Shown: positions 35,680 to 39,666 of the stretch, in pieces | How the letters are laid out: every line of letters starts with the position of its first letter | How positions within the stretch are numbered: position 1 is the first letter of the stretch | Source: Paucisalibacillus globulus | Lineage (GTDB): Bacteria > Bacillota > Bacilli > Bacillales > Amphibacillaceae | Length of the DNA stretch: 64,000 nt | Direction: 5' to 3' | NCBI RefSeq assembly: GCF_900184735.1 | Contig: NZ_LT855386.1 | Span: 1-64,000, forward strand | Notes under the pieces: generated by a model | The model's database searches: none | What the model was told of the DNA's origin: nothing | Seen by the model: the letters and a program-made list of their open reading frames with translations, nothing else | Made by a program: the position numbers and the translations under genes

Positions 35680-35773
35680 TTGACATCCTCCTTTTTATAG
35701 TTGTCAAACTTCATAGTTATTCTTTGATGTTTTAACGTTACTATACCGATAAATCATTAAAGGATAATGGAAA

Positions 35774-35817
35774 AAACTCTTTATGTTGTAAATATCTGGA
35801 TACAACATAAAGAGTTT
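35774..35817 (-). terminator. terminator of the FbpB-like gene
   Basis: aaactctttatgttgta / tacaacataaagagttt, a 17-bp perfect stem with a 10-base loop, followed on the minus strand by TTTTCC. It lies 24 bases after the stop of the small gene at 35842-36021. Confidence 0.85.
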
Positions 35818-35841
35818 ATTGTAACGAGCATTTGTTAACTA

Positions 35842-36021
35842 TCATGCTTCTTTACGCTTCGATAGTAATTCTTTCGCTCTTCTTTCTAAATTATCTTCGA
35901 TTCGGTCCAATATTGCCCTATCTTCTAATATTTGTTGACGATTAGCCTGAACCAGCTCTTCAAACGAAAGTCTTTTCTTTAAAGAAATGGTAATCACCCC
36001 TTTTAATAGAAGTATTACCAT
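35842..36021 (-). CDS. FbpB-family small basic protein (Fur-regulated basic protein type)
   Basis: A short gene beside acnA. The conserved core 'LSFEELVQANRQQILEDRAI' followed by 'LDRIEDNLERRA' and a basic tail matches the FbpB family (PF13040), small proteins that in B. subtilis work with the iron-sparing sRNA FsrA. The start is uncertain: ATG 36021 gives 59 residues but has no good site; GTG 35997 gives 51. The only strong Shine-Dalgarno (aaaagggg) best serves a start near 35988-35994, where the codons are ATT. A 13-bp perfect inverted repeat (35982-36026) folds around this site. Its own terminator follows. In B. subtilis FsrA/Fbp target citB mRNA, so the place next to acnA is suggestive only. 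Confidence 0.65.
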   Translation of the reverse strand: MVILLLKGVITISLKKRLSFEELVQANRQQILEDRAILDRIEDNLERRAKELLSKRKEA

Positions 36022-36026
36022 TTCTT
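35982..36026 (-). promoter_or_regulatory. hairpin around the start region of the FbpB-like gene
   Basis: On the mRNA, aagaaatggtaat and attaccatttctt (13 bp, no mismatch) pair with a 19-base loop that holds aaaaggggtg. The upstream ATG lies in the first arm, the GTG at the loop end, and the non-standard start in the second arm. This can expose or hide the start of translation. Confidence 0.6.
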
Positions 36027-36063
36027 ACTTTTTTTATAATAATTTTTGCAAAATTATAATCGT

Positions 36064-36660
36064 TTAATTTAAAGCATTGATGGTGTCCACCATAAAATCA
36101 TAAGTCATCGGTCCAAAATACCTTGATTGAATTTTACCTGCCGTATCAACAAAATACGATGTTGGAATTGTTGCTACCCTATACATTTCATCAGTTACAC
36201 TCATGTCTTTATCAAGTGCTACTGGGAATGTATAACCATTTTCATCGATGTAATCTCGCACAACCTGTTCATTTCTCTCAGAATCTGTTGCATTTATCGC
36301 AATGATTTTAATTTCATCACCATGTTCTTTATATAATTTTTCAAGTTCAGGCATTTCCTTTTTACATGGTCCACACCAGGAAGCCCAGAAATTAATTAAC
36401 ACTTTATTACCCTTTAACTCAGAAAGCTTTATCATTTCACCATTTAATAGTGGTAATTCAAAATCTGGAGCTTGATCTCCTTCTTTGATTCCAACTGCTC
36501 CAGGAGAAACAATTTGAACACCGTCGACAGAAGTATCACCCGTTACGTCTACCATATTGGGCCCTGATGCTTCTTCTTTTTTATTGGTTTCAACTATATT
36601 TATTACTAATACAATACCTAGAACCGCTAGGATTGCAATTCCTATGATCTTTTTAAACAT
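36064..36660 (-). CDS. yneN: membrane-anchored thioredoxin-like protein YneN (TlpA/ResA family)
   Basis: A 198-residue thiol-disulfide oxidoreductase. One N-terminal helix (about 4-22) anchors it outside the membrane, followed by a linker and an AhpC/TSA-redoxin domain with the active site 'WCGPC' (Cys96, Cys99) and the cis-Pro block 'VATIPTSYFVD'. ATG 36660 has gggag at 8 bases; an earlier in-frame start 11 codons upstream has none. The gene lies between acnA and tlp as in B. subtilis. The family reduces apocytochrome c or spore-coat/cortex proteins; with ccdA nearby at 43.1 kb, it could receive electrons from CcdA. Confidence 0.88.
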   Translation of the reverse strand: MFKKIIGIAILAVLGIVLVINIVETNKKEEASGPNMVDVTGDTSVDGVQIVSPGAVGIKEGDQAPDFELPLLNGEMIKLSELKGNKVLINFWASWCGPCKKEMPELEKLYKEHGDEIKIIAINATDSERNEQVVRDYIDENGYTFPVALDKDMSVTDEMYRVATIPTSYFVDTAGKIQSRYFGPMTYDFMVDTINALN

Positions 36661-36796
36661 TGTATGTGCTCCCAACTTATGTATATTTATCACTTCTATT
36701 TATAGTATACAATCTAAGAAACAATAATAAAGAAATATACACAAAAGTCAAAGAGATTTCACATATTACTATCCCTTCTCCTTTACCAAATAAAAA

Positions 36797-36823
36797 ACGA
36801 GCTCCTCATAAAAGGAGCTCGTT
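36797..36823. terminator. acnA terminator
   Basis: aacgagctcct / aggagctcgtt, an 11-bp perfect stem with a 5-base loop, 8 bases after the acnA stop, with a T-run (TTTTTTATTTGG) on the minus strand. Confidence 0.85.
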
Positions 36824-36830
36824 ATAAAAA

Positions 36831-39542
36831 TTAGTTGGCTAATCTGTTACGTAATACCATCTGTAAAATACCACCATGACGGTAATAGTCAATTTCCACT
36901 TCACTATCAAAGCGAACTACAACTTTAAACTCAGTTGTTTTACCATTTTCGTCTGTAGCTGTAACTTTTACTAGATCGTGTGGTTTAACATCTTCACCAA
37001 TTTCTAAATTGAATTCTTCTTTACCAGTCAAGCCTAATGTCTCAGCACTTTGACCTTTTTCAAATTCTAATGGTAATACACCCATCATAACAAGGTTAGA
37101 ACGGTGAATACGCTCAAAGCTTTCAGCAATAACCATCTTAATTCCAAGAAGGTTAGTACCTTTAGCTGCCCAGTCACGAGAAGATCCCATACCATAGTCT
37201 TTACCCGCAAGAATTGCTAAGCCAGTCCCATCTTGTTGATATTTCATTGCTGCATCATAGATCGGCATAACTTCACCAGTTGGCCAGTAAGTTGTGTAAC
37301 CACCTTCTGTGCCAGGGGCAATTTGGTTACGAATACGTATATTCGCGAATGTACCACGCATCATCACTTCATGGTTACCACGACGAGAACCATAAGAGTT
37401 GAAGTTTCTAGGTGAAACACCTTTATCTTGTAAATAAAGTCCTGCTGGCATATCTTTCGCAATTGCACCTGCTGGAGAGATATGGTCAGTAGTCACGGAA
37501 TCACCAAACTTACCAATTACGCGTAAGTTATTAAGTGCTTCTACTTTACCAGGTTCTTTAGATAAACCTTCGAAGTATGGTGGGTTTTGAATATAAGTCG
37601 ATTCTTCATCCCACTCAAAGATAGGCTCATCTGTAGTTTTGATTTCATTCCATTTTTCGTTAGAGCTAAATACATTTTCATACTCTTTACGGAAAATTTC
37701 TGGGTTTACTACCCGATTTACTTCTTCCTTAATTTCTTCCATTGAAGGCCAAATATCATTTAAGTAAATAGGCTCTCCATCTGCATCAGTACCAATTGCA
37801 TCTTTAGCTAAATCAACATCCACCGTTCCAGCAAGAGCATAAGCGACAACTAGTGGAGGTGAAGCAAGATAGTTTGCCTTTACAAATGGATGTATACGAC
37901 CTTCAAAGTTACGGTTACCAGAAAGAACCGATGAAACCGTTAAATCATTCTTAGCAATCGCTTCTTCAATCTCAGGAAGAAGTGGACCTGAGTTACCTAT
38001 ACATGTCGTACAACCATATCCAACTAAGCTAAACCCTAGTTTGTCAAGATATGGCATTAGACCAGCATCTTCAAGGTAACGTGTAACAACTTTAGAACCA
38101 GGAGCTAATGAAGTTTTTACATAAGCCGGTACTTCTAATCCCTTTTCTACCGCTTTCTTAGCTAGTAGTCCTGCACCTAACATTACATATGGGTTGGAAG
38201 TATTCGTACAAGATGTAATAGCTGCAATTGCAAGAGAACCTGTTTTCATAACGGTTTCTTTACCATTAGAAAGTTTCACTGTTACTTCTTTATCAAACTC
38301 TGATTTATCTAGTCCAAAACCTTGGTTTCCTTGAGGAGCAGTAATAGCTTTCTTGAATTCCTTTTGCATGTTAGATAGAGGAATCAAGTCCTGCGGACGC
38401 TTAGGTCCAGAAAGGTTTGGTTCTAGTTCTGATAGATTAATTTCAATAACGTTTGTATATTCAGGATCTTTCATATCAGCTGAATACCAAAGATCATTTT
38501 CTTTACAATATTTTTCAACTAACTGAATATGATCTTCACTACGGCCAGTTAGGCGAAGGTAGTTAAGTGCCTCTTCGTCTACAGGGAAGAAACCACATGT
38601 TGCACCGTACTCTGGAGCCATGTTGGAAATGGTAGCACGGTCAGCTAGTGGCATGTCTTTAAGTCCTGGTCCGTAATACTCAACAAATTTCCCTACTACA
38701 TTTTGTTCACGTAAGACTTGTGTCACTTTTAGAGCTAAGTCAGTTGCAGTAGTTCCTTGAGGGAAGCTACCAGTGAATTTCACACCAATTACTTCTGGTT
38801 GTGGGAAGTATGAAGGTTGACCAAGCATTCCAGCTTCTGCTTCAATTCCACCTACTCCCCAACCTAATACACCTAGACCATTAATCATTGTGGTATGAGA
38901 ATCAGTACCAACTAATGTATCAGGAAATGCATCATATTCACCATTCTCATTCTCAAGTTCATGTACAACACTTGCAAGATACTCAAGGTTTACTTGGTGT
39001 ACAATTCCAGTTGCTGGAGGAACAGCACGATAGTTCTTAAATGCTTTTTGAGCCCAGTGTAAGAATTCATAACGCTCACCATTACGCTTGAATTCTAAAT
39101 CCATATTAGCTTGTAGAGCACTTGCTGTACCATATTGGTCAACTTGTACAGAGTGGTCAATAACTAAATCAACTGGAACTTCTGGATTAATTTCTTCTGC
39201 ATTACCACCTAGATCAACCATTGCTTTACGCAATGAAGCAAGGTCTACTACAGCTGGTACTCCAGTAAAGTCTTGTAAGATAACACGGGATGGTTTGAAA
39301 GGTACATCGACCCCAACACCTTCCTTTGTTCCCCATTTTGTTAAGGCTTCAACATGTTCATCATTAATTACACGGCCATCATATTGACGAACTAAAGATT
39401 CTAGTAATACTCGAATAGAAAATGGTAGTCTGTCAATTTTACCTAGGCCAGCTTCTTCTAAAGCTTTTAATTCATAGTAGTTATAGGTTTTACCATTAAG
39501 GTCGAATTTCTTCTTTGCATCGAAGACAATATTCTCTCCCAC
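36831..39542 (-). CDS. acnA: aconitate hydratase
   Basis: Iron-sulfur TCA enzyme interconverting citrate and isocitrate; when iron is short the apo-form binds RNA. The 903-residue protein has the cluster ligands in 'SCTNTSNP' and '[11 protein letters not shown]' and the usual '[19 protein letters not shown]' block. C-terminal swivel domain: '[16 protein letters not shown]', '[15 protein letters not shown]', '[16 protein letters not shown]'. I start it at GTG 39542 with agaaagggg at 9 bases, which gives an N-terminus like B. subtilis CitB; a TTG 10 codons upstream has no site. It is called citB in B. subtilis. An AT-rich 250-bp region lies upstream; I could not place a convincing CcpC dyad there. 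Confidence 0.97.
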
Positions 39543-39666
39543 TCGCAAAAACCCCTTTCTGCTTTTTTTCAAGAATTGGAATGTTGCTATGTCTATGGTT
39601 TATTCATAATCTAAAGAGCATATCCAAATTCTATTAGTTTTCTACATATTCATATTAAATGAAAAT

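Follow-up and report, generated by a model that had tools for sequence, protein, structure and literature searches.

A likely AUU start codon inside a covarying hairpin: a probable two-layer translation brake on an acnA-linked FbpB-like gene

The FbpB-like gene and its surroundings

The window, i.e. the whole stretch of 64,000 nucleotides analysed from Paucisalibacillus globulus, carries on its minus strand a small FbpB-like gene (35842..35988; 48 aa), the start of which was placed by alignment with relatives. Upstream on the same strand lie a ResA/YneN-like thioredoxin-fold gene (36064..36693, minus strand, assigned from family and profile matches) and acnA (36831..39572, minus strand, read from its translation), the product of which we take to be aconitase from knowledge of the family and which served as tblastn query; tlp and a thioesterase gene follow downstream. 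The FbpB-like gene had been described in the first-pass annotation as lying two genes downstream of acnA, which is correct, with the ResA/YneN-like gene in between. The annotated length of 51–59 codons did not stand, the most likely product being 48 aa from an ATT codon (35842–35988); its description as a small FbpB-like gene did.

A search with PF13040 (Fur_reg_FbpB), proposed in the same annotation, returned a match of the frame at E 3.8e-13 and 49.2 bits, above the Pfam gathering cut-off of 25. With the NCBIfam equivalog model for FbpB (NF033227) the protein scored 12.4 bits against a cut-off of 60, and because this is far under the cut-off the gene is called FbpB-like here. It is the sole PF13040 match in its own genome at E ≤ 0.001 (profile search) and is carried by 11/11 genomes of the genus. 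Among the 11 genus loci, variable sites at codon positions 1, 2 and 3 number 25, 14 and 41, and the frame is, judged from sequence comparison, constrained at the protein level. B. subtilis FbpB, which sits in the Fur-regulated fbp operon, shares the PF13040 domain and the size of 48 aa with this product; the FbpB-like gene differs in its score under the NCBIfam equivalog cut-off, in its linkage to acnA and in the control proposed at its start.

A role at citB by way of the small RNA FsrA, which the first-pass annotation had suggested from the known helper function of FbpB, found no support: the protein lies at 12.4 bits with the FbpB equivalog cut-off at 60, the FsrA model gave only about 18 bits, and according to a 2020 review, no Fbp protein has been found to contribute when FsrA represses citB (PMC7430163). 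In detail, the best scores of the FsrA model (RF02273) on the window's own genome were 18.1 and 17.8 bits (gathering score 80, E about 0.5), with the reservation that the Rfam model may be narrow. A RoxS/RsaE-like small RNA was observed elsewhere in this genome (G000:C3:582805–582920, L217) at 66.3 bits and E 1.8e-10, the gathering score being 79. A second RsaE/RoxS candidate, inside the window on the plus strand (36735–36826) over the acnA terminator region, scored 26.9 bits against the same gathering score of 79 and was judged to be a chance match, a better copy existing elsewhere.

The start region of the FbpB-like gene is enclosed by an inverted repeat. Its 3′ arm (35982..35994, minus strand, from inverted repeat and folding) holds the proposed AUU start codon (35986..35988, minus strand), and its 5′ arm (36014..36026, minus strand, from inverted repeat, folding and covariation) holds an upstream ATG (36021–36019). 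Both arms are 13 nt long and 100% complementary, with 19 nt between them, so the perfect 13-bp repeat of the first-pass annotation is exact, as is its placement of the ATG in one arm and the ATT (35988–35986) in the other. The loop (35995–36013) contains AAAAGGGGUG, by eye the only strong Shine–Dalgarno sequence, again as annotated; the core AAGGGGUG (35995..36002, minus strand) lies in the hairpin loop or upper stem. Folding of the minus-strand RNA 35940–36046 gave −26.2 kcal/mol; shuffled sequences averaged −14.63 (z −3.81), and 0/200 of them were as good.

Just 5′ of the 5′ arm, the consensus of 64 rows displays a TTATAA-rich, −10-like stretch (36033..36043, minus strand), a putative promoter. 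A TATAA-like motif was present in 53/68 rows with a yneN match upstream and in 11/15 rows without one; a sigma-70 scan of the window returned no minus-strand site at the −10-like stretch. Behind the gene, a 20-nt inverted repeat with 95% complementary arms followed by a T-run (35771..35820, minus strand) is a likely terminator, and was not among the sites of a simple terminator scan. Together, the −10-like stretch and the 35771–35820 repeat with its T-run suggest a short transcript of the FbpB-like gene's own, beginning at or near the hairpin.

The start codon inside and outside the family

The named relatives found (n = 16) belong to Paucisalibacillus, Ornithinibacillus, Oceanobacillus, Lentibacillus and Virgibacillus, together with three Alkalihalobacterium/Alkalihalobacillus. 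The window's ATT aligns with the initial ATG of these three proteins, and the same column is the start of other relatives outside the family. For the family survey, 157 genomes of the window's family were searched and 118 gave a match. The in-family linked set comprises 91 loci with acnA/yneN linkage, namely 83 unique first loci and 8 found among 20 lower-scoring places; it does not extend to the rest of the lower-scoring matches, among them a genus with ten genomes. L108 (= L013), flagged as linked through a thioredoxin-like match 1.9 kb away, was counted as a second copy, and L027–L029, which lie outside the family, were excluded from the in-family count. One genome (G152) has the locus twice, on contigs C1 and C2 (L065 and L066), one of them a 23-kb contig, as a duplicate or an assembly artefact.

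At the aligned start, the 91 linked loci carry ATT (68), ATA (3), ATC (4), ATG (11), GTG (3) or TTG (2), i.e. AUH (AUU/AUA/AUC) in 75/91 and ATG/GTG/TTG in 16/91. According to this tally, letters 1 and 2 are nearly invariant and letter 3 takes all four bases. Further statistics, including those on structure, were based on 83 of the 91 linked loci (69 AUH and 14 NUG rows), the 83 leaders of which were aligned (alignment A2). An AAGG or AGAG core ends 9–18 nt before the start in 69/69 AUH rows, and in 57/69 it is AAGG at a distance of 11 nt. The ATT, called the best-spaced start in the first-pass annotation, can be read directly at 35988–35986 and gains support from the alignment and the family tally.

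Initiation could instead take place at a canonical codon, the candidates being the 5′-arm ATG and the GTG in the Shine–Dalgarno sequence, either of which would give a longer protein with the ATT as an ordinary codon. In the window each of the two begins an open stretch in the frame of the gene, that of the ATG being 59 aa long, by eye without a well-placed Shine–Dalgarno sequence, and an in-frame canonical codon lies somewhere upstream in 26/69 AUH rows (a GTG inside the Shine–Dalgarno sequence in 9, the window included). However, the remaining 43/69 rows have no in-frame ATG, GTG or TTG upstream before a stop, which in 36/43 falls within 30 nt; the GTG overlaps the Shine–Dalgarno sequence, and the ATT column is the start of the outside relatives. 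Moreover, 29/69 AUH rows contain no ATG, GTG or TTG at all from the in-frame stop through codon 7, so that in these a canonical start cannot yield the conserved core, and in 14/69 a canonical codon is present only within codons 2–7. Canonical initiation is accordingly regarded as very improbable. An in-frame ATG 6 nt (two codons) before the AUU was noted in 5/69 AUH rows (L048, L049, L081, L097 and L098), too near the Shine–Dalgarno sequence for an obvious start. The comparison establishes the position of the start and the identity of its codon, from which we infer translation of the FbpB-like gene from AUU.

Among genomes drawn from the order outside the family, 376/397 match the FbpB-like gene. 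The out-of-family set that was read consists of 63 loci from 28 families, mostly higher-scoring rows and no random draw; in this set 63/63 loci are canonical at the exact aligned position (52 ATG, 6 GTG, 5 TTG). Either acnA or yneN lies upstream on the same strand in 45/63, and neither was seen in 18/63. The place beside aconitase, which the first-pass annotation had expected to be a new arrangement, is therefore not new, since it is common to these 45/63 loci with their ordinary starts. The in-family loci counted as second copies number 38, of which 20 come from genomes that also contributed a linked locus; in 38/38 a canonical codon stands at the aligned position or one codon later. In most of them it stands one codon past the aligned position; L119 and L236 have ATA or ATC at the aligned codon, directly followed by ATG or TTG. 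With all 63 outside loci and all 38 second copies canonical, the AUH start is limited, as read, to one gene in one family. On a tree of the 83 loci built from acnA, yneN, tlp and the thioesterase gene, the midpoint root is AUH and parsimony counts nine codon-class changes; a second tree again gave nine.

The hairpin over the start among relatives

Pairing was assessed over the 83 leaders for 13 pairs named from the window's structure, a choice that leans towards that structure. These pairs are standard in 78.7% of cells, compared with 74.1% after shuffling and 37–51% with the partner slid. Double-changed cells number 55, against 26.2 for shuffled and 25–33 for slid partners, and the covariation score of 0.236 (shuffled 0.157) was reached by 0/500 shuffles. 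A double change occurs in 10/13 pairs, which is less telling as 38/500 shuffles reach 10. One hairpin pair alone appears as UA (38), CG (20), UG (9), GC (3), GU (2) and other (11). For the third base of the start codon the pairs are AU (51), GU (4), UA (3), UG (2) and CG (1), with 22 unpaired or other, i.e. standard in 61/83. Counted along the tree, 15 branches are compensatory compared with 0–7 for slid partners; pair-breaking changes outnumber pair-keeping ones (147 to 78), slid partners keeping 30–58. The double-changed cells and the compensatory branches bear out what the first-pass annotation had named as a check, namely that the arms are conserved and covary in related genomes. The three outermost pairs stand in 47–58 of the 83 rows, and RNAalifold on the 83-row leader alignment (A2) predicted no consensus structure.

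Folding z-scores below −2 were obtained for 55/69 AUH and 9/14 in-family NUG leaders, 9/63 leaders from outside the family and 0/20 second copies. The mean probability of the start codon being paired is 0.88 for AUH loci, 0.58 for in-family canonical loci, 0.41 outside and 0.48 for second copies. An uninterrupted helix of at least 8 bp over the start codon is predicted in 59/69 AUH rows, 4/14 in-family NUG rows and 12/63 outside loci; 10/69 AUH rows are without such a helix, so that conservation of the AUH codon extends further than that of the hairpin. Along the tree, the tie between AUH and the hairpin runs mostly in the expected direction, with only 5 independent pairs and a median p of 0.25. 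From these comparisons the hairpin is conserved in most of the family and uncommon outside, and we infer that it forms in the cell.

Variants of the 5′ arm were seen by eye. L043, L052, L054, L059, L064 and L080 keep AUU or AUC while unrelated sequence takes the place of the usual 5′ arm, and some of these loci have another helix instead. In a sub-group (L095, L103, L104, L109, L111, L113, L114, L220–L223 and L233) the 5′ arm reads AATCCTT or AATCCTCC; this arm can pair with a purine-rich stretch of the AAGGAGAGGATT type, drawing the Shine–Dalgarno region into the helix.

5′ stem-loops stabilise Bacillus mRNAs, and a 5′-terminal hairpin might chiefly shield a short mRNA from 5′ exonuclease, with effects on translation being secondary. 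The −10-like element would indeed have transcription begin not far from the 5′ arm. For protection alone the start codon would not have to be part of the hairpin, yet the pairing here runs through it, the third base of the start codon stays paired through other base pairs in some rows, and the AUU would be left unexplained, so that protection as the main function has little probability. Similarly improbable is an RNA thermometer or ion-responsive switch: a hairpin covering both Shine–Dalgarno sequence and start codon is the usual form of such elements, but the energy with which the 84-nt leader folds differs greatly among the 83 rows (−6.9 to −25.6 kcal/mol).

A covariance model of the hairpin (R1) was run on 31 genomes with 150 first-look candidates scored per genome. 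A strong site (E 2.2e-7 or better) was found in 14, all of them in-family, all at the FbpB-like gene and all from genomes that were in R1's own alignment; no convincing second site emerged among the 150 candidates scored in each of the 31 genomes. A second R1 site in the window's genome (E 0.0126) was attributed to chance on inspection. The hairpin element looks, by this model, single-copy per genome. This bears on a further possibility, in which a trans regulator, such as the Fbp-like protein itself, RNA-binding aconitase or a C-rich small RNA, e.g. RoxS, docks on the hairpin and exerts the main control, the AUU merely lowering the baseline. In its favour, the sequence of the arms is conserved beyond pairing alone (A2), the genome has the RoxS-like RNA mentioned above (66.3 bits, under the gathering score of 79), and B. 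subtilis aconitase binds RNA hairpins according to the accessible part of PMC7430163. Against this, the covariance model is strong at only one gene per genome with 150 candidates scored in each, linkage to acnA extends to loci outside the family, most of which lack the hairpin, and FsrA was not found above noise in the own genome. Docking as the main control is considered less likely than not.

A proposed brake and its known counterparts

The arrangement probably constitutes a translation brake of two layers, a near-cognate start and a hairpin over the Shine–Dalgarno sequence and the start codon, peculiar to one family. AUU, or AUA/AUC in a few relatives, would initiate the 48-residue PF13040 protein, with the start codon and the long Shine–Dalgarno sequence held in a hairpin with the upstream arm, probably at or close to the point where a short transcript of the gene itself begins. 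The helix would have to open before the 30S subunit binds the Shine–Dalgarno sequence; in series with this first brake, the near-cognate codon would be poorly accepted under IF3 proofreading. The strong Shine–Dalgarno sequence would select the initiation site despite both brakes, and the result would be low and adjustable synthesis of a protein of which little is required. Output would be expected to rise when start-codon stringency relaxes or when the hairpin is opened by a presumed releasing signal.

To our knowledge, conserved AUU/AUA starts are few. In E. coli, infC and pcnB have an AUU start that limits translation, and the AUU of infC is the target of IF3 feedback. They differ from the FbpB-like gene in protein family and host, and the latter is further set apart by the covarying hairpin that covers its start. 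In the window's own genome infC (IF3; contig C2, ~95300–96400, L205/L215) reads by eye as AUU-started after GGAGGTGGCTGGCT (GGAGG), while the ATG that follows in frame lies four codons further on and is poorly spaced; IF3-linked discrimination of starts is therefore plausible in this genome.

In S. aureus, AUU/AUA starts with a long Shine–Dalgarno sequence give about 10% of AUG output in RPMI, with ccpN reaching up to 30% in rich medium (PMC13009471, as far as its text was available). The S. aureus genes cvfC1, ccpN and infC resemble the FbpB-like gene in having a near-cognate AUH start conserved across species and a long start-proximal Shine–Dalgarno sequence, and cvfC1, a small protein of 61 aa, is similar in its small size as well (same portion of PMC13009471). 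These cases concern other genes and were measured by Ribo-Ret and reporters, whereas the start of the FbpB-like gene was placed by sequence comparison; no structure over the starts is described in the available portion, and the word 'hairpin' is absent from the main text (PMC13009471).

For B. subtilis cmpA and isp, the available text of PMC13317604 describes stem-loops over the start region that keep expression low and tie it to the 16S methyltransferase MraW; in E. coli, according to the same text, loss of the 16S mark set by MraW raises mis-initiation at AUU. Both genes are like the FbpB-like gene in their stem-loop over the start region, and their products are proposed by the authors to be needed in limited amounts (PMC13317604, text available). 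The isp stem takes in sequence 5′ of the RBS and the start codon, as does the FbpB-like hairpin, and cmpA starts with AUG, unlike the AUU of the FbpB-like gene (PMC13317604, likewise in part). The FbpB-like leader would thus unite a stem of the cmpA/isp type with an AUH start of the S. aureus type.

Titles and abstract openings in the open-access literature, most subscription journals excluded, contained no paper on the start of the FbpB-like gene, and none of the conserved AUU/AUA starts in the text examined is described as lying inside a covarying hairpin. A conserved near-cognate start is in itself known; what appears to be new is that such a codon also lies within a covarying hairpin, a combination confined to one family as read.

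A more specific and rather unlikely extension of the two-layer brake is that the leader gauges start stringency, the AUU together with the helix over it causing output to respond sharply to the condition of the ribosome at initiation (IF3 level, 16S C1402 methylation). In one family, an otherwise ordinary gene linked to acnA would then have come to report on the fidelity of initiation, and the Fbp-like protein might feed back on its own leader.

The findings suggest that gene finders restricted to ATG, GTG and TTG could miss the FbpB-like gene or mis-start it, as 29/69 AUH loci offer none of these codons through codon 7; in Borrelia, a true AUU start was long mis-annotated, as stated in the accessible part of PMC13398362. 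Within the family and its surroundings, loci with AUH and hairpin, with AUH without hairpin and with a canonical start without hairpin form a natural series for asking what near-cognate starts serve, and the FbpB-like leader may offer a way to study how bacteria choose the start of translation.
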